A stretch of 64,000 nucleotides of DNA from Rhizobium leguminosarum. Its GTDB lineage: Bacteria > Pseudomonadota > Alphaproteobacteria > Rhizobiales > Rhizobiaceae. The DNA lies in contig NZ_JAGIOR010000001.1 of NCBI RefSeq assembly GCF_017876795.1, forward strand, positions 591,501 through 655,500, given 5' to 3'. Below the pieces are notes generated by a model. It was not told the origin of the DNA. It worked only from the letters and a program-made list of their open reading frames with translations, and searched no databases. This document shows positions 7,488 through 20,854 of the stretch, piece after piece. The position numbers and the translations under genes are program-made. Positions within the stretch are counted from its first letter, which is position 1, and each line of letters opens with the position of its first letter.

Positions 7488-9802
<2,315 letters not shown>

Positions 9803-9814
9803 TCAAAGATTATC

Positions 9815-10681
9815 GTGAATTTTGCGAGCTATAACATACAGTACGGCTTCGGTCTCGACGGCAGATACGATCTCCAGCGCATTGCCCGGAGCCTTGAGGG
9901 CGCCGATATCATCGCGCTGCAGGAGGTGACCCGCGGCTTCTCCCGCAACGGTTTTGCCGACATGGCGGCCGACCTTGCAGCCTTCTTTCCCGACCATTTC
10001 TGGGTGTATGGGCCGGCCTGCGACATGCATGTCGAGGCTGCCGGAAGCGGGCGTCTGCCGGTGCGGGGCATGCGTTTCCAATTCGGCAATATGGTGCTGT
10101 CGCGCTGGCCGATCCTTTCGACCCGGACGCTGCTTCTGCCGCGCAGCCGGACGATCAGCAAGATCAACCTGCAGCGCGGCGCAACCGAGGCGCTGATCGC
10201 GGCACCCGGCGGGGCGATCCGCGTCTATTCCGTCCATCTCGACCACGTCTCTCCAGACGAGCGTATCCGCCAGCTGCAATTCTTGAACGCGCATATCAAC
10301 GCTTTCGTCCATGAGGGCGGGTCGCTGACGGGGGGTGGCGAATTCGATCTGCCGGAGCCGCCGCTGCCGGAGGACTACGTCATCATGGGCGATTTCAACA
10401 TGGAGCCGGAATCGCCGGAATATTGCGCGCTTGCCGGTGCCGGCGGCGGATATTACGGCCGTGTCGCCCGGATCGGCACGCCGGTCGACGCCTTTGCGGC
10501 GCTCAAGGCCTATGGCCCGGAGAGCTACAGCTGGATGAATCCCGAAGATCACGGCGAACGCATGCATCTCGATCATTGCTTCGTCAGTTGCGGCCTACAA
10601 GGCCGGTTGAAATCCGCCCGGATCGATACGCAATCCGTCGGCTCCGATCATTTCCCGCTATGGGTCGAGATCGGCAATTGA
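9815..10681 (+). CDS. Endonuclease/exonuclease/phosphatase family protein
   Basis: A 288-residue metal-dependent EEP-fold hydrolase. Motifs in order: NFASYNIQYG at the N-terminus, DIIALQEV (metal-binding Glu), YSVHLDH in the middle, VIMGDFNMEP (DxN motif) and SDHFPLWVEI (catalytic Asp-His) at the end. No signal peptide is seen, so it is probably cytoplasmic. The substrate is not predictable: family members cut DNA, phosphoinositides, sphingomyelin or nucleotides. The GTG at 9815 is the likeliest start, 12 bases after GGAGG; the reading frame stays open upstream into obgE antisense DNA, which is not coding. Divergent from obgE. Confidence 0.82.
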   Translation: MNFASYNIQYGFGLDGRYDLQRIARSLEGADIIALQEVTRGFSRNGFADMAADLAAFFPDHFWVYGPACDMHVEAAGSGRLPVRGMRFQFGNMVLSRWPILSTRTLLLPRSRTISKINLQRGATEALIAAPGGAIRVYSVHLDHVSPDERIRQLQFLNAHINAFVHEGGSLTGGGEFDLPEPPLPEDYVIMGDFNMEPESPEYCALAGAGGGYYGRVARIGTPVDAFAALKAYGPESYSWMNPEDHGERMHLDHCFVSCGLQGRLKSARIDTQSVGSDHFPLWVEIGN

Positions 10682-10683
10682 CG

Positions 10684-10720
10684 GAGACGCCGCCGGTCGG
10701 GCGGCGGCATCTCCTATTTG
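10684..10720. terminator. Bidirectional hairpin between convergent genes
   Basis: An imperfect inverted repeat (GGAGACGCCGCC against GGCGGCGGCATCTCC) fills the gap between the endonuclease-family gene and the convergent GNAT gene, with a short T-rich stretch on the plus side. Confidence 0.5.
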
Positions 10721-10721
10721 T

Positions 10722-11309
10722 TTACGCCACCTTCCGCGGCTGCAGCATGCCCGGGTGCAGCACGGTTTCGATGTGCGACACCATGGTGTTGCGGGCGAAA
10801 CAATAGATTTCGCCGCAGCCCGTCATGCGGAAACCGAGCTTTTCCTGCAATCGCAGCGAGGCCGGGTTGTCGGCGAAGACGCCGGAATGGATCGGCGTCT
10901 CCGGCATGCGGCGCGAGAAGCGCTCGATAATTCCAGCCACCGCCTCGCTCATATAGCCGCGCCGCCAGTAGTAACGGTTCAGCCAATAGCCGAGGTGCCA
11001 GCGGTCGTGCCGCAGCTCGATGGCGACGTTGCCGATATGGACATCGTCCTTGCCGGTGATCGCCAGCGGCCAGTCCGGAAGGGCGCCTGAGGTGACCGGG
11101 ACAAGCCAGTCCAGCGCATCCTGCCGGTCGAACGGCGCGGGGACGCGGGACAGCATGCGCGTGACGGCGAAATCGGAAAGCGATTCCGCAATCGATGGCG
11201 CATCGCTCAGCCTGTGGGGGCGGAGCGTCAGCCGGGCGGTCGAGATGACAGGCGCGGGGCCTGGCATCATCGGCTTCAACTCCGGCCTTTGCAGCGCGGT
11301 CGTGCTCAT
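10722..11309 (-). CDS. GNAT family N-acetyltransferase (RimJ/RimL type)
   Basis: A 195-residue acetyltransferase. After the family start STARLTLRPHRLSDAPSI come the beta strands with VHIGNVAIEL, HLGYWLNRYYWRRGYMSEAV (acetyl-CoA binding loop) and ADNPASLRLQEKLGFRMTG, the usual RimJ/RimL layout. Such enzymes acetylate ribosomal protein N-termini, amino acids or small amines; the substrate cannot be told. The ATG at 11309 overlaps the stop of the upstream GNAT gene by 4 bp, so the two are a coupled pair. Confidence 0.85.
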   Translation of the reverse strand: MSTTALQRPELKPMMPGPAPVISTARLTLRPHRLSDAPSIAESLSDFAVTRMLSRVPAPFDRQDALDWLVPVTSGALPDWPLAITGKDDVHIGNVAIELRHDRWHLGYWLNRYYWRRGYMSEAVAGIIERFSRRMPETPIHSGVFADNPASLRLQEKLGFRMTGCGEIYCFARNTMVSHIETVLHPGMLQPRKVA

Positions 11310-12708: not shown

Positions 12709-13012
12709 TTTTTATCCTTTCATGTTCGTTCCAGCTCTCCCCGCTGCTTCAGCAGGGTGGCCGTCTTTTTATCAGTCGAAGTTAAGCAGGGATTTCAGAG
12801 GCTAATCCTCGAATTCGTCCTGCCGGTGAAGCCCCGCGCGAGCGCGGGACGGCCGAGGCACGGATTACTCCACACCTAGTGCGCAGCCGAGATACGCGAG
12901 TGACAAAAAGGTGTCAAGGCAAAAGGATGGAATGCTTCGACTTTTCGGCTTGCCAACCTGTCATAGGCCCGTTATGAGAACGCCCGCGCCGAACAAGCGC
13001 CGACCAGACCGC
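12709..13012. other. Intergenic region between rplU and tRNA-Ser
   Basis: This 304-bp gap should hold the divergent promoters of rplU-rpmA and tRNA-Ser. A G/C-only palindrome (CCCGCGC/GCGCGGG, 12833-12848) is present; no gene is seen. Apparent ORFs running across the tRNA are artefacts. Confidence 0.6.
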
Positions 13013-13102
13013 GGAGAGGTGGCAGAGTGGTCGAATGCACCGCACTCGAAATGCGGCATACCTGCAAGGGTATCGTGGGTTCAAATCCCACCCTCTCCGC
13101 CA
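13013..13102 (+). tRNA. tRNA-Ser (anticodon CGA)
   Basis: A class II tRNA of 90 bases including encoded CCA. The acceptor stem pairs GGAGAGG (13013-13019) with CCTCTCC (13092-13098). The anticodon stem CCGCA/TGCGG encloses CTCGAAA, anticodon CGA, reading UCG. A long variable arm follows, then a T-arm with GTTCAAATC. The last 17 bases are repeated at 20222-20238, marking this gene as the integration site of the adjoining island; the tRNA itself is intact. Confidence 0.96.
13086..13102 (+). repeat. attL-like direct repeat (3' end of tRNA-Ser)
   Basis: TCCCACCCTCTCCGCCA, the last 17 bases of the tRNA, occurs identically in the same orientation at 20222-20238. Integrase-borne elements leave exactly such a copy of a tRNA 3' end at the far junction. 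Confidence 0.75.
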
Positions 13103-13605
13103 TATGTTTATTGTAAATGTAGGAAATATAATAGCCCCGAAAGCCACTAGCGGGGCGCTAGCTGCGGTCCATTGGGCCACCACGCCGGGTCTCGGCCACC
13201 AGTTGCTGTTGCAGCAGTTTTTGCACATTCCGACCAAGCAAATGCCACCAATGCCGGGCCAGCCGCAATAATTAACTCGTTTGCTGATGGCTCTTATCGG
13301 CCCAACGCGGCCATTCCCTCCAGGGTTGGTTGGCTTCGCAACCCCGATCTCGCAGCGCGCTGCCGGATGAGCAACCTTCATAGCTTCGACATCTAGTGAG
13401 CGCTCGCTCCCCCCTTAAGACCAGAAATCGATGCCGCTTATTTGAGCTACGACTGCACCTAACGTCATCACAAAATTCCACTCAACTTCAGGCCAAATTG
13501 ATTTGCCTACGCGGCGGAAAAGCGGAAAATTCAAGGGGAGCTGCCTACTGGGCAACGAGCGCCGGAATGGACGATACCGGCAGCTGCCCTTTGAGGGAGG
13601 AGAAA
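13103..13605. other. Non-coding left end of the island
   Basis: About 500 bp with no convincing gene. Short ORFs exist on both strands, but none has recognisable similarity or a ribosome-binding site; a hairpin (AGCCCC...GGGGCGCT) occurs near 13132-13160. It may contain eroded mobile-element DNA. Confidence 0.4.
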
Positions 13606-15138
13606 ATGGCCGGTAACCATTCAGACTCGAGCGGACCTGATCTGGCCCTCGGCATTGCGCTCGCCGATCTTCCCGATGGAGGCAAGCTGGTCGGCCATCG
13701 CGACGGCGAGTCCGTGCTTCTGGTGCGCCGCGGAGCAGAGATATTCGCCGTTGCTGCCGCCTGCTCACACTATGGCGGACCGCTGGTCGACGGCCTCGTT
13801 GCCGACGACGGCGTCCGCTGCCCCTGGCATCACGCCTGCTTCGACCTGCGCACCGGAGAGGCCCTGCGCGCGCCGGCTCTGTCGCCGCTCGCTTGCTGGT
13901 CGGTCGAGCAGCGGGGCGAAAGGATTTTCGTTGGCGAGAAGCGCAAGAAACCGTCACCGGCCACGCGCGAAAGCAATGCCGGGGTGTTTCCGGAAAGGAT
14001 CGTCCTCGTCGGCGGAGGCGCGGCCGGTTTTGCCGCAGCCGAGAGACTGCGGCGCGAACAATATCAGGGCGCCATCGTCATGATCAGCGACGACGAGGCG
14101 CCGCCCGTCGACCGCCCCAACCTTTCGAAGGACTATCTCGCGGGCAAGGCTCCCGCAGACTGGCTCCCGCTGCGCAACGAAAGCTTTTATGCCAGGAACG
14201 GCATCGACCTGCGCGTCGGAACTAAGGTTGCTGGCATCGATGTCCTTGCCAGCGAGGTCGTGCTCGCCGATGGAGCACGGGTCGCTTTCGACAAATTACT
14301 GCTCGCAACCGGCGCCGAACCGGTGCGCCTGACCATACCCGGCGCCGGCCAGCCTCATGTCCACACGCTGCGCTCGCTTGCCGACAGCCGCAGGATCATC
14401 GCGCAGAGCGACGCGGCGCGGCAGTCTGTCGTGCTCGGCGCCAGCTTCATCGGCCTCGAGGTTGCTGCCGCTCTTCGGACCCGCGGAGTCGAAGTGCATG
14501 TGGTGGCGCCCGAGGAACGGCCGATGGAACGGCTGCTGGGCCCCCAGATGGGCGATTTCATCCGCGCCCTGCATGAGGAAAATGGCGTCATCTTCCATCT
14601 TGGAGACACCGCGGCGAGCATCGACGCGAGCGAAGTCCTGCTGAGCAGCGGCAGCACCCTGGCCGCCGACATGATCGTTGCCGGCATCGGCGTGCGGCCT
14701 AGGGTCGATCTCGCCGAAAGAGCCGGTCTCGCCACCGATCGGGGCGTCCTGGTCGATGCCTATCTCGAGACCAGCGTGCCGGGGATATATGCGGCCGGCG
14801 ATATCGCGCGGTGGCCGGACCCACACAGCGGCGAGAACATCAGGGTGGAACACTGGGTGGTGGCGCAGCGGCAGGGTGCTGCCGCGGCCCTCAACATGCT
14901 CGGTCGCCGGAAGAAGTTCACGGCTGTGCCGTTCTTCTGGAGCCAGCATTACGACATTCCGATCAACTATGTCGGCCATGCCGAGAGATGGGACGCGATT
15001 GAGGTTGAGGGCGACGTTGCCGCGCGGGACTGCCTCCTGCGCCTCAAGCGCGGTGGACGCGTTCTGGCGGTTGCCACGATCTTCCGCGATATCGAAAGCC
15101 TCGAGGCAGAACTGGCGATGGAGCAGAGCAAGGCGTAG
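13606..15138 (+). CDS. Rieske [2Fe-2S] / FAD-dependent NAD(P)H reductase fusion
   Basis: A 510-residue fusion. Residues 1-110 are a Rieske ferredoxin with C53-S-H55 and C72-P-W-H75 ligands. From about 122 an FAD/NAD pyridine-nucleotide-disulfide reductase follows: first GxGxxG in VLVGGGAAGFAAAE, PPVDRPNLSKDYLAG, second dinucleotide site VVLGASFIGLEVAAAL, then GIYAAGDIARW binding FAD, and a reductase C-terminal domain with WSQHYDIPINYVG. This architecture matches AIFL-type and ring-hydroxylating-dioxygenase reductase proteins that pass electrons from NAD(P)H to a partner. No oxygenase gene is nearby, so the partner is unknown. The ATG at 13606 follows GAGGGAGGAG; the frame is open further upstream without support. 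First gene of the tRNA-Ser island. Confidence 0.88.
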   Translation: MAGNHSDSSGPDLALGIALADLPDGGKLVGHRDGESVLLVRRGAEIFAVAAACSHYGGPLVDGLVADDGVRCPWHHACFDLRTGEALRAPALSPLACWSVEQRGERIFVGEKRKKPSPATRESNAGVFPERIVLVGGGAAGFAAAERLRREQYQGAIVMISDDEAPPVDRPNLSKDYLAGKAPADWLPLRNESFYARNGIDLRVGTKVAGIDVLASEVVLADGARVAFDKLLLATGAEPVRLTIPGAGQPHVHTLRSLADSRRIIAQSDAARQSVVLGASFIGLEVAAALRTRGVEVHVVAPEERPMERLLGPQMGDFIRALHEENGVIFHLGDTAASIDASEVLLSSGSTLAADMIVAGIGVRPRVDLAERAGLATDRGVLVDAYLETSVPGIYAAGDIARWPDPHSGENIRVEHWVVAQRQGAAAALNMLGRRKKFTAVPFFWSQHYDIPINYVGHAERWDAIEVEGDVAARDCLLRLKRGGRVLAVATIFRDIESLEAELAMEQSKA

Positions 15139-15312
15139 AGCGTGATGAGATCATGCCGCATGACTTGCGTTTACCTAACCGGCTGAGTCAATACCGTCGC
15201 CTCCGAGATGATGTCAAAGCCCCTTCTGACCTACGGGGACAGCGGTCAGCCCCGCTGCTGTGATAGTGTCTACCGTGTCGGCCCCTGAACTTGGACTACG
15301 TGACCATTGTGA

Positions 15313-15363
15313 CCCATCCTTCATAATGATGGGGCCAGGTGTTCGAGTCACCTAAGCGGCACA
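15313..15363 (+). pseudogene. tRNA 3'-half relic (tRNA-Thr/Met-like)
   Basis: A complete anticodon-side loop TTCATAA with near-complete stem (CATCC/TGATG, one mismatch), a perfect T-arm AGGTG-TTCGAGT-CACCT (15337-15353) and an acceptor 3' strand AAGCGGC-A are present. No D-arm or 5' acceptor strand precedes it, and CCA is corrupted. From the anticodon loop on it resembles, from memory, alphaproteobacterial tRNA-Thr. A tRNA 3' half left alone inside an island usually marks an old attachment site. Confidence 0.5.
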
Positions 15364-15522
15364 ATTCTTTCCCTGGTAGATCAGTAGCTTAATCGATCGG
15401 CGTTCACAAATTCTCTAATAGCTCGATCCTTCAGTTGTCACCGGATCGTCACGCGTTGGCATAGCTCGTTGGCGGTGCATCGCAGTCCGCAGCCTGGGCC
15501 TCCAGTTTTCAGCGGAAATCAT

Positions 15523-16200
15523 TCAGTTTGTGACCCCGGCACTCCAAAGACCAAGGCCACCCACGAGGATCAGGCTCAGGGGCCAGACGACATAGAGATT
15601 GAACCAGCTCTTCGAAATGAACTCGAGCCCCAGCCATCGGTAGACGGCGATGGCGATGCCACCGCCGCTGACGATCATGGCGGTGGCATGCACCGCGGAC
15701 ACTATGATGGCGGTAACGAGGTTACCGGCCATGAGAGCCGCGGCCGCTTTGTGGCCGGCATCCAGGTCCTCGGCGCGGCACAGGCCCAGATAGATGGGCA
15801 CGAGCATCAGCCCCGCACCGTGCGCCATGGCCGCTGCGAACGACCAGAAGGCAAGTTGCGCGGGCCGGATGCGCGCCAGGAATCGCGGATGGCGGGGGTT
15901 TATCAACAGGTAGACGCCCGCCGCGACGACGATCAAACCGGCGGCGATGCGGATATCGCGCTGCCAAACCACCAGCGAGGCCATCGCCGCGAACGGCAAA
16001 AGGATGCCGATCATGGCGAAGAAGTGACCCACCGCCAGCAGGCCAAGCGCCCGGTACAGATCGCCGGTGCGCGTGCCCATCAGCCCGGCGGAAACGGCGA
16101 GCGGCCAGCCCATGCCGGGATTGATGCCGTGATAGATGCCGCTGCCGACGATGGCCAGCCACAGGCCCGCCGTCGTCCACCCAGCCATCCAGGTGTTCAC
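15523..16200 (-). CDS. Polytopic membrane protein coupled to the SBP56-type gene
   Basis: A 225-residue protein with about six hydrophobic segments. Two histidine-glycine motifs stand out, HGINPGMGW near residue 24 and AHGAGLMLVPIYLGL in the middle, vaguely like nickel/cobalt or urease-accessory permeases, but no NiCoT signature (HX4DH) is seen. The start is a GTG whose bases overlap the stop of the SBP56-type gene (GTGA), so the pair is translationally coupled. Function is not assigned; a role in delivering a metal or handling a sulfur substrate for the neighbour is speculation. Confidence 0.7.
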   Translation of the reverse strand: MNTWMAGWTTAGLWLAIVGSGIYHGINPGMGWPLAVSAGLMGTRTGDLYRALGLLAVGHFFAMIGILLPFAAMASLVVWQRDIRIAAGLIVVAAGVYLLINPRHPRFLARIRPAQLAFWSFAAAMAHGAGLMLVPIYLGLCRAEDLDAGHKAAAALMAGNLVTAIIVSAVHATAMIVSGGGIAIAVYRWLGLEFISKSWFNLYVVWPLSLILVGGLGLWSAGVTN

Positions 16201-17597
16201 ACGGACGGATAGCAGAACGAGTCCGTCGAGCAGTCGCCGCCTTCCAGACGGATCTGGTGCGATCGGTAGCCGTCCGGGAACTCGACGTAGAAGTCCTTGT
16301 CCAGGGTGATCCCGCCGTCCTGGCCGACGTCAGCCTTGACCATAGCCGCTGGGATTCCGGCCGGATAGAACTGGTCGTCCCAGGTCGAGTACAGCGAGTT
16401 GGTCCAGTAGACCCGCTTGCCGTCGCGGCTGATTTCGACCATCTGCGGCCCGCCCTTGTAGTCGCCGCCGCCTGGATGCTTGGTCTTGCGGGTTACGCCG
16501 CCGATGTGGACAGACCCGGCGAGCTTGAGATTCATCGGATCCGACACTTCGTATTGGCGCATCTCGCCAGTGCCCCAGCAGGACACATAGAGAAAGCGAT
16601 CATCGAGCGACAGATCGATATCCGTGACAAGGGGCGGCACTCCCTCGAAACCCTGCAGCAGCGGTGGCAGGTCGTCTTTCTTGGCCGGTTCCGGCGAGAT
16701 GGTCGCCGTCTTCTTGCAATGAAACTTTCCGTCCTCACGCCACCACGTCCAGATCGACCCTTCGAGGTTCGTCGAGTCCACGACTACGCCGAGGAAGCCG
16801 TATTCCTTCACCGGGTCATGGGCGGGGCGGACTTCCAGCGCCATCTGGTGGTTGGCGCCCAGATCAATCGTCTGCACGTTTTTGCGTTCACGCAAATTCC
16901 AGAAATGCACTCGATGGCCGTATTTGTTCGATAGAAGGTCTCCTGGAACGACGCCGTTCTCGAATTGGGGCGGAAGCCCCCACTCGCTCGATACCATGTA
17001 GTCGCGCGGCAGGTTCCACCAGAAGTCATACTGCTTGTCCTGCGTTCCGCGATCGATCTCATAGCGGCCAATGACGTCGAAGGTTTCGCAATCCATGATG
17101 AAGATGCCGGGAGGTCCGTCGGTGCCGTTGGGACCGCCGCCCCCGAGCGTCGAGACATAAATGCCCTCCGGACCGCAATGGACGGTGTGGGGCCTGGAAT
17201 AGCCCGTCTTGGCGAACACCTCTTGCGGCTCGATGATCTTGTGAATCTTGGCCTCGGTGGGCCCGCCCTGGGTATCGACGACATAGATGCGCGATGATCG
17301 GATGCCGGGGATGATCAGGAAGCGACGATCGACGAAGGGATGCCCGTTCAGGGGGGAAAGCGCTGAGGAACAGGCATTCCAGCCGAAATGGTGAAACTCA
17401 TCCCCCTTGTTGGGCATGATCACCGAGTGGACGATCTTGCAGTAGTCTTTCGACTTCGGGTTCACGTCGACGACCGCCAGTCCATCGGGCTGGGAGAAGT
17501 CCGGACTGAGCATCAGCGTGTAGGCGAAGTTTTCTACTGGCGACTGCATTGCCAGTTTCGCCGTCGCATGGAATGTCGGATCTGGTCGTGTGGTCAT
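16197..17597 (-). CDS. Selenium-binding protein SBP56 family / methanethiol-oxidase type
   Basis: A 466-residue beta-propeller protein of the SBP56 family, whose characterised members (human SELENBP1, bacterial MtoX) oxidise methanethiol to formaldehyde, H2S and H2O2. Key residues: C53 in DYCKIVH matches the human selenium-binding cysteine; HHFGWNACSSAL has the first Cys of the usual CSSC (C76) but alanine replaces the second. His-rich motifs TVHCGPEGIY, GANHQMALEVRPAHDP and DYRSHQIRLEGGDC, the presumed metal-site region, are intact. No signal peptide is apparent, unlike periplasmic MtoX, so a cytosolic place is likely. The ATG at 17597 follows AAGGGAGGG. Upstream in-frame residues to 17693 are not supported. 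No SCO1- or MauG-like companions are present. Confidence 0.85.
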   Translation of the reverse strand: MTTRPDPTFHATAKLAMQSPVENFAYTLMLSPDFSQPDGLAVVDVNPKSKDYCKIVHSVIMPNKGDEFHHFGWNACSSALSPLNGHPFVDRRFLIIPGIRSSRIYVVDTQGGPTEAKIHKIIEPQEVFAKTGYSRPHTVHCGPEGIYVSTLGGGGPNGTDGPPGIFIMDCETFDVIGRYEIDRGTQDKQYDFWWNLPRDYMVSSEWGLPPQFENGVVPGDLLSNKYGHRVHFWNLRERKNVQTIDLGANHQMALEVRPAHDPVKEYGFLGVVVDSTNLEGSIWTWWREDGKFHCKKTATISPEPAKKDDLPPLLQGFEGVPPLVTDIDLSLDDRFLYVSCWGTGEMRQYEVSDPMNLKLAGSVHIGGVTRKTKHPGGGDYKGGPQMVEISRDGKRVYWTNSLYSTWDDQFYPAGIPAAMVKADVGQDGGITLDKDFYVEFPDGYRSHQIRLEGGDCSTDSFCYPSV

Positions 17598-18037
17598 AGC
17601 CGTCCCTCCCTTGGCGGGTTGATGAGCCCGATCGATGAGCAGGGGCATGACCGATTGCGCATTCAGGCGCCTACTGACACTGTCGGGGCTCAATCTTGTT
17701 TACTGAAGTTATGCGGCTTCGCAGAGTCTCACGGATTTCGGAGAACCGCAATCTCCGCGTATTTCGGGGAAAATCCGCCGCAAGGGACAGGCGCGATGCC
17801 CCCGTTGGACAGGTATGCTGAGGCGCAGGCGTAGCCGCGTTCTTGGCCAGCGCAGTCAAATTGCGCCATGTCGGAATTACGGGTCTTGGCCCGAGCGTGG
17901 CCTACACTAACGCGAAAGTATTGACCCATTTCTGCCGTTGGAAACGCCCGCGGCAAAGATTTATGGCGCAACTTGCTCGTTCCGGTAGCTGGGTCAACTG
18001 CGCGCATCCGCGCCTGACACATGCCTTTTCGGTGCGG
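17598..18037. other. Intergenic stretch of the island, no gene recognised
   Basis: About 440 bp upstream of the SBP56-type gene. It should contain that gene's promoter, but no clear box was found. Overlapping short ORFs on both strands lack ribosome-binding sites and family resemblance. Confidence 0.4.
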
Positions 18038-18307
18038 CTATTCGGATTTTCTCCATTTTTCGTAAGCGTTCAGCCTGTGCCTTGCGATGAACTTGTGGTG
18101 GTGGCCGAGAAGGAAGGAGAGCCCTGTCGCGACAAGAACGTAGCGGGTGTGCTGTCGGTCGGTCCCTCGCCACCATTGTGCCGCGACGGCCAGCACCAGG
18201 AGCGGCACGCCGATTGCGGAAGTCCAGATCATCAGAAAGTCGACGGCCGCGTTTTGTCCTGCCAACCCGTTGATCGCGTGCGTTACAGCAGTGTCGAGTT
18301 CATACAT
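18038..18307 (-). pseudogene. PAP2-family phosphatase, N-terminal fragment
   Basis: An 89-codon ORF starting at 18307 behind CAGGAG. It reads MYELDTAVTHAINGLAGQ followed by two hydrophobic segments, like the N-terminus of PAP2/undecaprenyl-pyrophosphatase-type membrane phosphatases. The sequence then turns to a basic tail (HHHKFIARHRLN...) and stops. None of the three catalytic motifs (KX6RP, PSGH, SRX5HX3D) is present, so it is truncated and inactive as a phosphatase. Confidence 0.5.
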
Positions 18308-18457
18308 CGGTAGCTCCTGAGTTCGGCCTCCATGGCTGGGCCATATGGGATGTTTGAATGAGGTTGACGGCGATGAGTAGCATGCCGTTGCGATGCAATT
18401 ATTCTTCCGGCAGATCATCGATCGTCTGCATAGCGGCCCCTAAGAACACACACAAAA

Positions 18458-18937
18458 TCAGTCTGGCGGACCGTCATCTTCAGTCAAATAGTGGCTGCTC
18501 CAACTGTCTTTCGGAATTTCTTTGCCAACCGAAAACGCGAACGACTGAACATTGTCCAAATCGGCATTTACATTGCAGCGGTAGCGAACTCGGTACCATC
18601 GTTTCCGCGCTCGAAACGCCGCACCGTCCGCCGTGATTTCGTGGGACGAAACCTTGAGGTCGGCCATCGCATAGGCCACCAAATTGTCGGGTCGAAGGGT
18701 AGCTTTCCATTTGTGTATTTGCGCCATCGCCTCGATGTTGCAGAGTTGGACGACGCGTTCATCGGCGGCTAGAGATTTGAGGGTAGCCTTGGCATCTTTG
18801 CTTCTTCGATCGGCCAGGATGCTGGCGGAGAAGAAATGCGTCGCATGAACCATTTGGTCTGCTGGTTCCGCGGGTTCGGCAATTGCGGGTGGCGGAGGTG
18901 CCGCTGGTTTGTCGTTCGTCGGAGTGACTTTCTCCAC
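18458..18937 (-). pseudogene. DUF930 domain protein, C-terminal part
   Basis: A 159-codon ORF with a Pro/Ala-rich start (PAAPPPPAIAEPAEP) and then the DUF930 core: DERVVQLCNIEAMAQI, NLVAYAMADLKVSSHEITADGAAFRARKRWY and VQSFAFSVGKEIP. DUF930 proteins are common in Rhizobiaceae and usually longer, with an N-terminal membrane segment. Here the same frame continues upstream as linker-like sequence to about 18985 and there meets ZorA-like coding DNA in another frame. So the N-terminus appears lost by recombination. A GTG at 18937 might still allow expression. Confidence 0.55.
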
Positions 18938-19850
18938 GCTTCCTGGAGCTGGGCGATGCTCGTCTTTCGCCTTCGGCTGGATCCTGGGCTCGCGTCGGCC
19001 AGTGCAAGGCCGACAGTGTCTGTCAATTTGTTGGACAGGCCGGAAACCAGATCGCCGACGCCTTCCGCGCCAAGTTTTCCAACGCGGTCCATCATCGGGG
19101 CCATCGCGTCGCTGATCGATGCAGAGATCGCCTTCGGTAGTTCTTCTCGAAGCGGACGCCCAAGTTCAGAGACTAACTCCATGCCGATAATGCGAAAATG
19201 CTCTCGCTGTTCGCGAATTGCCTGAAGCTGCTCCGAAGCAAGCGCTTCCAGGCTGATATAGGTAAGCTTCTTTTCGATCGTCTCGCAAAGGTCATGGGCG
19301 GCTTTTAGGAACGCTCCGTAAACCCGACGAAACACGACGGTGAAGACGATCGAGCAAAACAGGCCAGTCAGCGACATGATGAACTTTGCCGAGGCGATAC
19401 TCAGCAGGGTTCTCATCGTCGCACTGTTGATCTCCTGGCAGAGATCAGTCCGAGGAATGTGAGAAACAATCCGATCGTCACGAACAATCCGGGAGCAATT
19501 CGCCAAGCTCCCGCGCCGAAACCCAAGTCCTCGACATTCAGAAATGTGGACGGCCGGACAGCATTTCGAAGAATGACGTTTCCGTCCTCCTCGTGGGGAA
19601 CAAACGTCTCGCGATACTCTGTCCAGGCGTGGGCCAGCTGACGTTGCTGCGGAGACTTGGCATTCTCCGCAATCTTCGCCCCGAGGGCGTCGATGTTACG
19701 GCTGAATTCGAGTTCGTTGGTACTGGCGGAAATCTCTCTCCAAAGCCATAGAATGGCCCGCCGCTGTTTGTTCACCCTTCGCCAGAAGGCAAAAGAGGCG
19801 ATGAGCAACGACACCAGCAGGAGGAAAGCTATAAACCCGGTGCGGCCTCA
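18770..19850 (-). pseudogene. ZorA-like (MotA/TolQ/ExbB family) gene, frameshifted and truncated
   Basis: Two frames together resemble ZorA, the membrane channel of Zorya anti-phage systems. The first (19413 to about 19850) has a hydrophobic start continuing from FIAFLLLVSLLIASFAFWRR, a basic KQRRAILWLWREI segment and APGLFVTIGLFLTFLGLIS, the second membrane helix. The second (from about 19440 down to 19000) continues NSATMRTLLSIASAKFIMSLTGLFCSIVFTVVFRR and an amphipathic tail (RVGKLGAEGVGDLVSGLSNKL). The frame changes right after LISA, where about 20-30 residues expected between the helices appear deleted. The tail ends at the DUF930 junction. zorB, zorC, zorD or zorE are absent, so this is a relic. 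Confidence 0.55.
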
Positions 19851-19921
19851 TGCGTTAGAAGCCCGGCAATGTGCAAAATGGATGCACGAAAGAATTCCCC
19901 AGTCAAAATTATGAATTGCAC

Positions 19922-20095
19922 TTATGCCCCCGAAATAGACGGCAAATCACCGCCATCATGTATTAGGAGATTTGCATAAAACCGCTCAAAGTTGTCTACT
20001 TTAAAACCTTCAATCTCTTTAAAATTGTCATCAGGTAGCCCTAAAAAGGAAGAAAGGGTAACTGGTAGGAGACGAGGCAGTTGATCCTTATGCAT
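19922..20095 (-). CDS. Small AT-rich ORF near the right island end, unknown
   Basis: A 57-codon ORF beginning MHKDQLPRLLPV and containing KEIEGFKVDNFERFYANLL. It is clearly richer in A/T than its surroundings, with AAA, GAG, TTT and GTA codons rare in the flanking genome. An in-frame stop lies two codons upstream and there is no strong ribosome-binding site, so it may be the C-terminal scrap of a foreign gene. No family recognised. The rest of 19850-20221 holds nothing else visible. Confidence 0.3.
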   Translation of the reverse strand: MHKDQLPRLLPVTLSSFLGLPDDNFKEIEGFKVDNFERFYANLLIHDGGDLPSISGA

Positions 20096-20221
20096 CTCTT
20101 AATCGGGAAGATAAGGTTAGCACCGAAGTGTTCGTTTGCTACCAAATGCGATACGAAAATTATTTCCGTATCGGCGTGGCTGCTAACTGAAAGCGGTATC
20201 GCGGCAAGGCGCCCCAAAAAG

Positions 20222-20238
20222 TCCCACCCTCTCCGCCA
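20222..20238 (+). repeat. attR-like direct repeat of the tRNA-Ser 3' end
   Basis: Identical 17-base copy of 13086-13102, not part of a tRNA gene (no stems upstream). It marks the right border of the island; normal rhizobial genes resume 56 bp later. Confidence 0.75.
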
Positions 20239-20293
20239 CAACGCTTCAAGCGCGCCAATGCTTGTGATTTCAGAACGTTGGCATAGCTAGGCG

Positions 20294-20854
20294 TCAGTGA
20301 CCAAGCACCTTCTTCACCCAGGCCGCAACCTCATCGCCGCTGCTCATTTTCGCCTGCACCAGCCCATCGATCATGAAGGTCGGCGAGACGTGGATGCCGT
20401 TTTGCCGGGCATATCTACAGTGCCATTTGATCTCCCGGTCGAGATCCGGAATTGCGAAGGCATCCTTCAGCTTCACGCCGCTGTAGCCCTCCAGCCGCTC
20501 GATGATCTGGTTCGGCGTCACGTCCATATTCGGGCCGCCGGCGTGATGATCGAATTCGAATTCCTCCCGATGGGCTGCGACGGCGGCCAAGACCTTCTTT
20601 GCCGTCTCTTTGCCGCCTTCCAGCGTCGAGGCCGCGATGATGCAGCGGACGAGGACGCCGGAATACATGTGCCAGGGCTGTGACTGCAGACGGATCTTGA
20701 CGGTAATCTTGTCTTCGCCGGCCTGGCTGAGCAGCGCATCGAGCTTATTGAAGGCTCTGACCGAATAGGGGCAGGTCGGCTCCAGGAAGACTTCGAAGAT
20801 ACGCGGTCCGGTTCCCCAGGTGAGCGGGTCGGCCTGCCATTGGACGTTTGTCAT
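20294..20854 (-). CDS. DsbA-like thioredoxin-fold protein
   Basis: A 186-residue protein with a thioredoxin-fold CPYS motif in FLEPTCPYSVRAFNKLD (about residues 28-31) and the cis-proline region VSPTFMIDG near the C-terminus, as in DsbA/FrnE-type oxidoreductases. The second active-site cysteine of CxxC is replaced by serine, so it may act as isomerase/reductase by a monothiol mechanism or bind glutathione. There is no signal peptide, hence probably cytoplasmic. It is the first chromosomal gene right of the island and lies downstream of the DUF6880 gene on the same strand. Confidence 0.75.
   Translation of the reverse strand: MTNVQWQADPLTWGTGPRIFEVFLEPTCPYSVRAFNKLDALLSQAGEDKITVKIRLQSQPWHMYSGVLVRCIIAASTLEGGKETAKKVLAAVAAHREEFEFDHHAGGPNMDVTPNQIIERLEGYSGVKLKDAFAIPDLDREIKWHCRYARQNGIHVSPTFMIDGLVQAKMSSGDEVAAWVKKVLGH

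Follow-up and report, generated by a model that had tools for sequence, protein, structure and literature searches.

We analysed a 64,000-nucleotide stretch of the Rhizobium leguminosarum genome (assembly GCF_017876795.1, contig NZ_JAGIOR010000001.1; here called the window, positions 591501-655500 of this contig, C1), which contains an island of about 7.1 kb at a serine tRNA gene, tRNA-Ser(CGA), between window positions 13086 and 20238 (C1 604586-611738). The island is very probably the fossil of an integrative element that carried a Zorya defence system and a DUF6538-type integrase, and it lies in a frequently used tRNA site. Such remnants are common; in this case the landing site in its empty state and an intact relative can both be demonstrated, and an unexplained mosaic can be read as a traceable history in which the unoccupied site, the intact relative and the fossil all belong to a single tRNA.

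Duplication of the tRNA 3' end

ARAGORN found a single tRNA in the window, the tRNA-Ser(CGA), and the sequence TCCCACCCTCTCCGCCA, which forms the last 17 bases of this gene (the core), starts at positions 13086 and 20222, on the plus strand only. The features that define the site are the following:

13013-13102, plus strand: tRNA-Ser(CGA), the attachment gene (ARAGORN; Rfam tRNA, 62 bits)
13086-13102, plus strand: left copy of the 17-bp core, the tRNA 3' end (exact sequence match)
20222-20238, plus strand: right copy of the 17-bp core, with a G in front (exact sequence match)
20294-20854, minus strand: right flank, a thioredoxin-fold protein that adjoins the tRNA in empty-site relatives (Pfam Thioredoxin_4)

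The tRNA end is duplicated identically at 20222-20238 with no second tRNA there, as an initial annotation made from the sequence alone had described. In the whole genome (7,582,206 bases) the 17-mer occurs exactly twice, at the two ends of the island, as compared to about 0.0009 copies expected by chance for a given 17-mer. The same annotation had reasoned that a repeat common elsewhere in the genome would speak against an island; this was looked at, and the 17-mer is present only at these two places. A chance repeat with no island, for which only the shortness of 17 bp could be argued, can be dismissed in view of this uniqueness, of empty sites that join at the repeat and of the same core bounding elements in three other genomes (Root1212, G147 and G102, see below).

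Empty sites in related genomes

The locus was compared among genomes sampled at one per species, with a single strain for the own species and with many assemblies in draft form. A query from the tRNA side was run on 61 genomes, including the own one, and then on 38 further genomes of the genus, while a right-flank query (20239-20854) was run on 148 genus genomes and matched in 84. From the genomes tried with both queries, a hand-entered set of 32 (own genome included) was compiled in which both flanks lie on one contig and one strand within 23 kb; genomes with the right flank elsewhere, e.g. G012, G142 and G062, were omitted, and gap lengths were calculated by extrapolation to where the right-flank query begins. 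The gap was -3 to 0 bp in seven of the 32 genomes (G019, G140, G103, G126, G017, G023 and G120), and the junction sequences of these seven show the right-flank homologue directly abutting the tRNA end. This is the empty site that had been predicted, with 13102 joined to about 20239, and its junctions, together with the core copies, confirm the proposed limits of the island. Two marks by which genomic islands are recognised, a copy of the tRNA 3' end at the other boundary and an empty site in relatives (7/32), were both found. Other gaps measured 147-160 bp in seven genomes, 639 bp in one, 1.4-3.7 kb in 11 and more than 5 kb in six (7.1 kb in the own genome, and G111, G082, G125, G061 and G007). 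Searched with the island's own DNA (E 1e-5), the stretches around the site of 36 relatives, some of which span it only in part, yielded no match. About 150 bp of extra DNA between tRNA and right flank was seen in seven genomes (L080, L081, L087, L096, L097, L099 and L100) and is common to most of them. The ribosomal-protein genes that flank the site, as well as several ORFs (open reading frames) of the relatives, were named by eye.

The right end and its intact relative

The main ORFs of the region were annotated with Pfam, PADLOC and NCBIfam. Beside the right core, pieces of two genes were recognised:

18943-20027, minus strand: zorA remnant, 5' half and upstream region, with the frame disrupted and the 3' half gone (PADLOC ZorA in two pieces; alignment with Root1212)
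20149-20205, minus strand: hipA remnant of 57 bp (local alignment with Root1212 hipA)

When the larger ZorA piece was searched against genome contigs, the closest matches were two loci, in Rhizobium sp. Root1212 (90% amino-acid identity) and in Rhizobium sp. Leaf371 (88%), each of them beside an exact 17-bp core. In Root1212 (NZ_LMDA01000022.1), a tRNA-Ser(CGA) containing the core lies 35.3 kb from the right core, and the DNA beyond this tRNA is 78% identical, over 1.1 kb, to the window's left flank, with the same ribosomal genes. Of the Leaf371 contigs, one stops 1.6 kb past the tRNA and another has Zorya-sized ORFs and the right core. Between the Root1212 cores, 26 ORFs of at least 100 amino acids were listed and 18 were scanned with Pfam, two of those in part. 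The cargo comprises a DRT3a/DRT3b pair (the second scanned in part), Mrr, a type I restriction-modification (RM) system, a complete type I Zorya system (ZorA-B-C-D) and HipA. The 35-kb element (L167-L169) also carries an AAA ATPase with an M41-peptidase neighbour.

The right end of the island is collinear with that of the Root1212 element. Positions 18943-20027 correspond to the 5' half of zorA in Root1212 plus the sequence upstream of it (blastn identity of 81% across 1,067 aligned columns). The 57-bp hipA piece gave a local score of 44 with Root1212 hipA (maximum of 200 shuffles, 30) and of 40 with that of Leaf371 (shuffle maximum, 32), and 20217-20238 align with the Root1212 right core. The order zorA, hipA, core is therefore the same in both, with sequence deleted between the pieces in 18943-20238. 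The window's zorA ends about half way, against a DUF930 gene, and only this broken part is left of the four genes (ZorA, ZorB, ZorC and ZorD) that make up a complete type I Zorya. Thus, the window and Root1212 share the tRNA, the G-preceded 17-bp right core and the zorA/hipA order beside it, whereas Root1212 has an integrase gene, the full Zorya ABCD, DRT3, Mrr and type I RM, and the window keeps only the zorA and hipA pieces along with 5.8 kb of other cargo. Compared with Root1212 and Leaf371, the zorA pieces of the window show a ratio of nonsynonymous to synonymous changes (dN/dS) of 0.02-0.03, as compared to 0.058 between Root1212 and Leaf371. Because the differences are mainly silent, this ratio suggests that zorA was broken recently relative to the divergence from Root1212 and Leaf371. 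Zorya was lost here while unrelated cargo was kept, which bears on the lifespan of defence islands.

A family of elements with a G-preceded right core

Within the tRNA the core follows an A, whereas the right-end copies of the island, Root1212, Leaf371 and two further genomes, G147 and G102, follow a G. G plus core was found in 3 of the 148 genus genomes, namely the own one, G147 and G102, and relatives of the Root1212 integrase in 19 of the 148. Twelve loci of such integrase relatives were fetched, and three (G147, G123 and G102) contain the exact core, within tRNA-Ser(CGA). In G147, 13.5 kb separate two exact cores, the right one G-preceded; a DUF6538-type integrase adjoins the tRNA and the cargo includes a type III RM system. 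The organisation in G102 is the same over 13.1 kb; its cargo includes a SIR2-like protein and a relaxase match just under the threshold (24.1 bits, as compared to a cut-off of 24.6). Both elements resemble the island in the tRNA and in exact cores at both ends with G before the right one, and differ from it in having kept the integrase and in their cargo. The island has the G-preceded right core and no integrase beside the tRNA; by its right-end sequence it is a putative remnant of the DUF6538-integrase family, and not an intact member. The short right-junction signature offers a handle for finding live and dead copies of the family.

Five viral contigs, L198 to L202, contain a G-preceded core; in three of them (L199, L201 and L202) it belongs to tRNA-Ser(GCT) genes. 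In contig L198 (IMGVR_UViG_3300048577_000008, 9022-10798) the G-preceded core was seen beside a DUF6538 and PF00589 integrase, with no tRNA. A search for phage attachment sites (attP) with the tRNA end returned 285 records, and several tRNA-Ser genes were among the matches listed (the best 20 of the 285).

Mobility genes

The initial annotation had recognised no integrase in the island, and we reached the same result: none of the 50 PF00589 matches of the genome lies within it, and the DUF6538-type integrase of Root1212 has no match anywhere in this genome. A hidden integrase was searched for in the island and none was found. With no integrase left, present mobility is unlikely, and the island can be classed only as a remnant, since an intact element would have its own integrase. 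Relaxase or transfer genes, expected in integrative and conjugative elements (ICEs) or integrative and mobilizable elements (IMEs), were detected by Pfam neither among the ten main ORFs of the window nor among the 18 of 26 Root1212 ORFs scanned.

The left 5.8 kb

The remainder of the island is occupied by the following features:

13606-15138, plus strand: Rieske and FAD oxidoreductase, 510 amino acids, intact (Pfam)
15315-15372, plus strand: relic of a tRNA-Thr(CGT), 3' part (sequence likeness to tRNA-Thr(CGT) relatives)
15523-16200, minus strand: membrane protein, 225 amino acids, no Pfam family, neighbour of SBP56 in relatives too (Pfam; comparison of relatives)
16197-17597, minus strand: SBP56 selenium-binding family protein, 466 amino acids, intact (Pfam PF05694, 573.5 bits)
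18105-18313, minus strand: N-terminal fragment of a PAP2-family protein (likeness to G007 and G081 proteins)
18458-18937, minus strand: DUF930 protein, 159 amino acids, adjoining the zorA break (Pfam PF06059, 109.9 bits)

Separate parts match separate genomes and replicons. The Rieske module is 84-92% identical in DNA to loci in 11 genus genomes, and the SBP56 module is 78-79% identical to DNA of four other genomes, with weaker matches besides. The PAP2 fragment shares 77-78% amino-acid identity over about 70 residues with proteins of G007 and G081, in the latter of which Pfam recognises PAP2. Pieces of the island occur in 128 plasmid records, none of which covers 80% of it. The dN/dS values were 0.13-0.24 for the Rieske/FAD gene (eight relatives), 0.14-0.16 for the membrane protein (four relatives) and about 0.04 for the SBP56 gene (four relatives). 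Together with the broken zorA and the gene fragments, these data bear out the earlier description of the content as accessory, mosaic and partly decayed.

The fragment at 15315 was first considered a tRNA-Met on account of a CAT triplet, an assignment that was abandoned given that its relatives are tRNA-Thr(CGT): 52 of 58 bases are alike in G155, as compared to 40 of 52 in the own genome's tRNA-Thr(CGT). In Rhizobium phage RHph_N65 (L157), 44 bp of the relic are present (91% identity); the integrase gene of this phage is about 0.8 kb away, and an HNH gene lies in the interval. The tRNA-Thr(CGT) resembles a second attachment site: G066 (L153) has two full copies 7.9 kb apart, and G002 (L154) a 43-bp repeat 8.6 kb from its tRNA-Thr(CGT).

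Origin of the island

In the course of events that we consider best suited to these data, a DUF6538-type tyrosine integrase would have recombined the G-preceded 17-bp core of an element with the tRNA-Ser(CGA) 3' end, which would restore the tRNA at the left and leave a second core at the right. The ancestral element would have carried hipA and a type I Zorya beside the right core, as Root1212 does. The integrase end, zorB to zorD, the 3' half of zorA and almost the whole of hipA have disappeared from this lineage. The interval from 13103 to about 18942 is now taken up by roughly 5.8 kb of unrelated sequence (the oxidoreductase, the SBP56 module, gene scraps and the tRNA-Thr relic).

Several observations weigh against this account. 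Read as a degraded form of the left end in Root1212, the island's left end gave no signal above shuffles: its best score with the Root1212 left arm and integrase was equalled in 174 of 200 shuffles. With no trace of them, nothing ties 13103-18942 to a Root1212-type element. The right flank of Root1212 differs from that of the island. The presumed integrase of Root1212, a 624-amino-acid ORF 90 bp from the tRNA, scores 24.6 bits for DUF6538 (cut-off 27) and has no PF00589 match, its C terminus showing motifs like those of tyrosine recombinases by eye only; PF00589 was matched only in more distant relatives (G102, 23.6 bits, below cut-off; viral contig L198, 43.2 bits). Finally, in G123, which also has type I RM and HipA, a stop interrupts the integrase gene and no right core was found at up to 2 mismatches, so the rule of G plus core is imperfect.

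The initial annotation had left three readings side by side, a remnant, a site repeatedly hit by different elements and a satellite-like element mobilised in trans. The first is strongly supported by Root1212, where an element with a collinear right end is bounded by this core at this tRNA, and the second is supported by the three types of integrase found at this tRNA (see below). A layered hotspot is a further reading: only the right 1.3 kb would be the scrap of a Zorya element, the left 5.8 kb would stem from separate events, one of them tied to a tRNA-Thr attachment site, and the repeats would bound no single ancestral element. The lack of a link between the left part and the Root1212 element, the differing relatives of the modules, the tRNA-Thr(CGT) relic and the several integrase types at tRNA-Ser(CGA) agree with this layered origin. 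However, neither a second copy nor a junction that would mark such an event was seen within the island, and one element with later gains fits the same data; we regard the layered origin as unlikely. The satellite, which would still move through helper functions, fared worse. Both cores are intact, but the right-end genes are broken and truncated, a PHROGs scan limited to 10 small or unassigned ORFs gave one weak match (E 0.038), and an inverted arm motif that had been spotted by eye in Root1212 could not be traced in 13001-20400 at up to 2 mismatches. It is very improbable, and the fossil of a Zorya-carrying element is preferred.

Other users of the same tRNA

Comparable systems are described in the literature. 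E. coli has defence islands with an integrase as the only known mobility gene, and tRNA hotspots with several element types (PMC10121019). The island is like these in defence cargo and in the shared tRNA hotspot, and unlike them in its host and in being a remnant without an integrase or a complete defence system. Additive islands with mixed mobile genes are reported in Pseudomonas aeruginosa (PMC10250203). Mesorhizobium ICEs and IMEs lie at tRNA genes, including tRNA-Ser (PMC8627217); they are likewise rhizobial integrative elements in tRNA 3' ends, and unlike them the ORFs scanned here, in the window and in Root1212, include no relaxase or transfer gene. Sinorhizobium prophages occupy tRNA-Ser(GCU) (PMC12429752). 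In the open-licence literature, nothing was found in print on tRNA-Ser(CGA) as an integration site in Rhizobium, nor on DUF6538 together with an integrase.

It is about evenly balanced whether tRNA-Ser(CGA) of Rhizobium is, more generally, a defence landing site for at least three unrelated integrase lineages, one of them an undescribed DUF6538-type family with an 18-bp right junction (G plus core) and swappable defence sets (DRT3, type I RM, Mrr, Zorya and HipA; type III RM; SIR2-like) that would leave behind fossils like this island, the family being what leaves them. In G007 (L071-L072, C1:4058900-4082100), an insert of about 22 kb at the tRNA has an Arm-DNA-bind_3/PF00589 integrase near its right end and a 14-bp right repeat; G007 is one of the nearest relatives, and this 22-kb insert appears phage-like by eye. 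A third integrase type, a PF00589 integrase in mid-element, is present in G061 (L075), G125 (L090), G027 (L102) and G021 (L104), where each element lies between two near-complete copies of the tRNA region that resemble each other over 133-153 bp. Naming by eye also gave these four elements a resolvase-like gene and genes that look like methylase or restriction genes.

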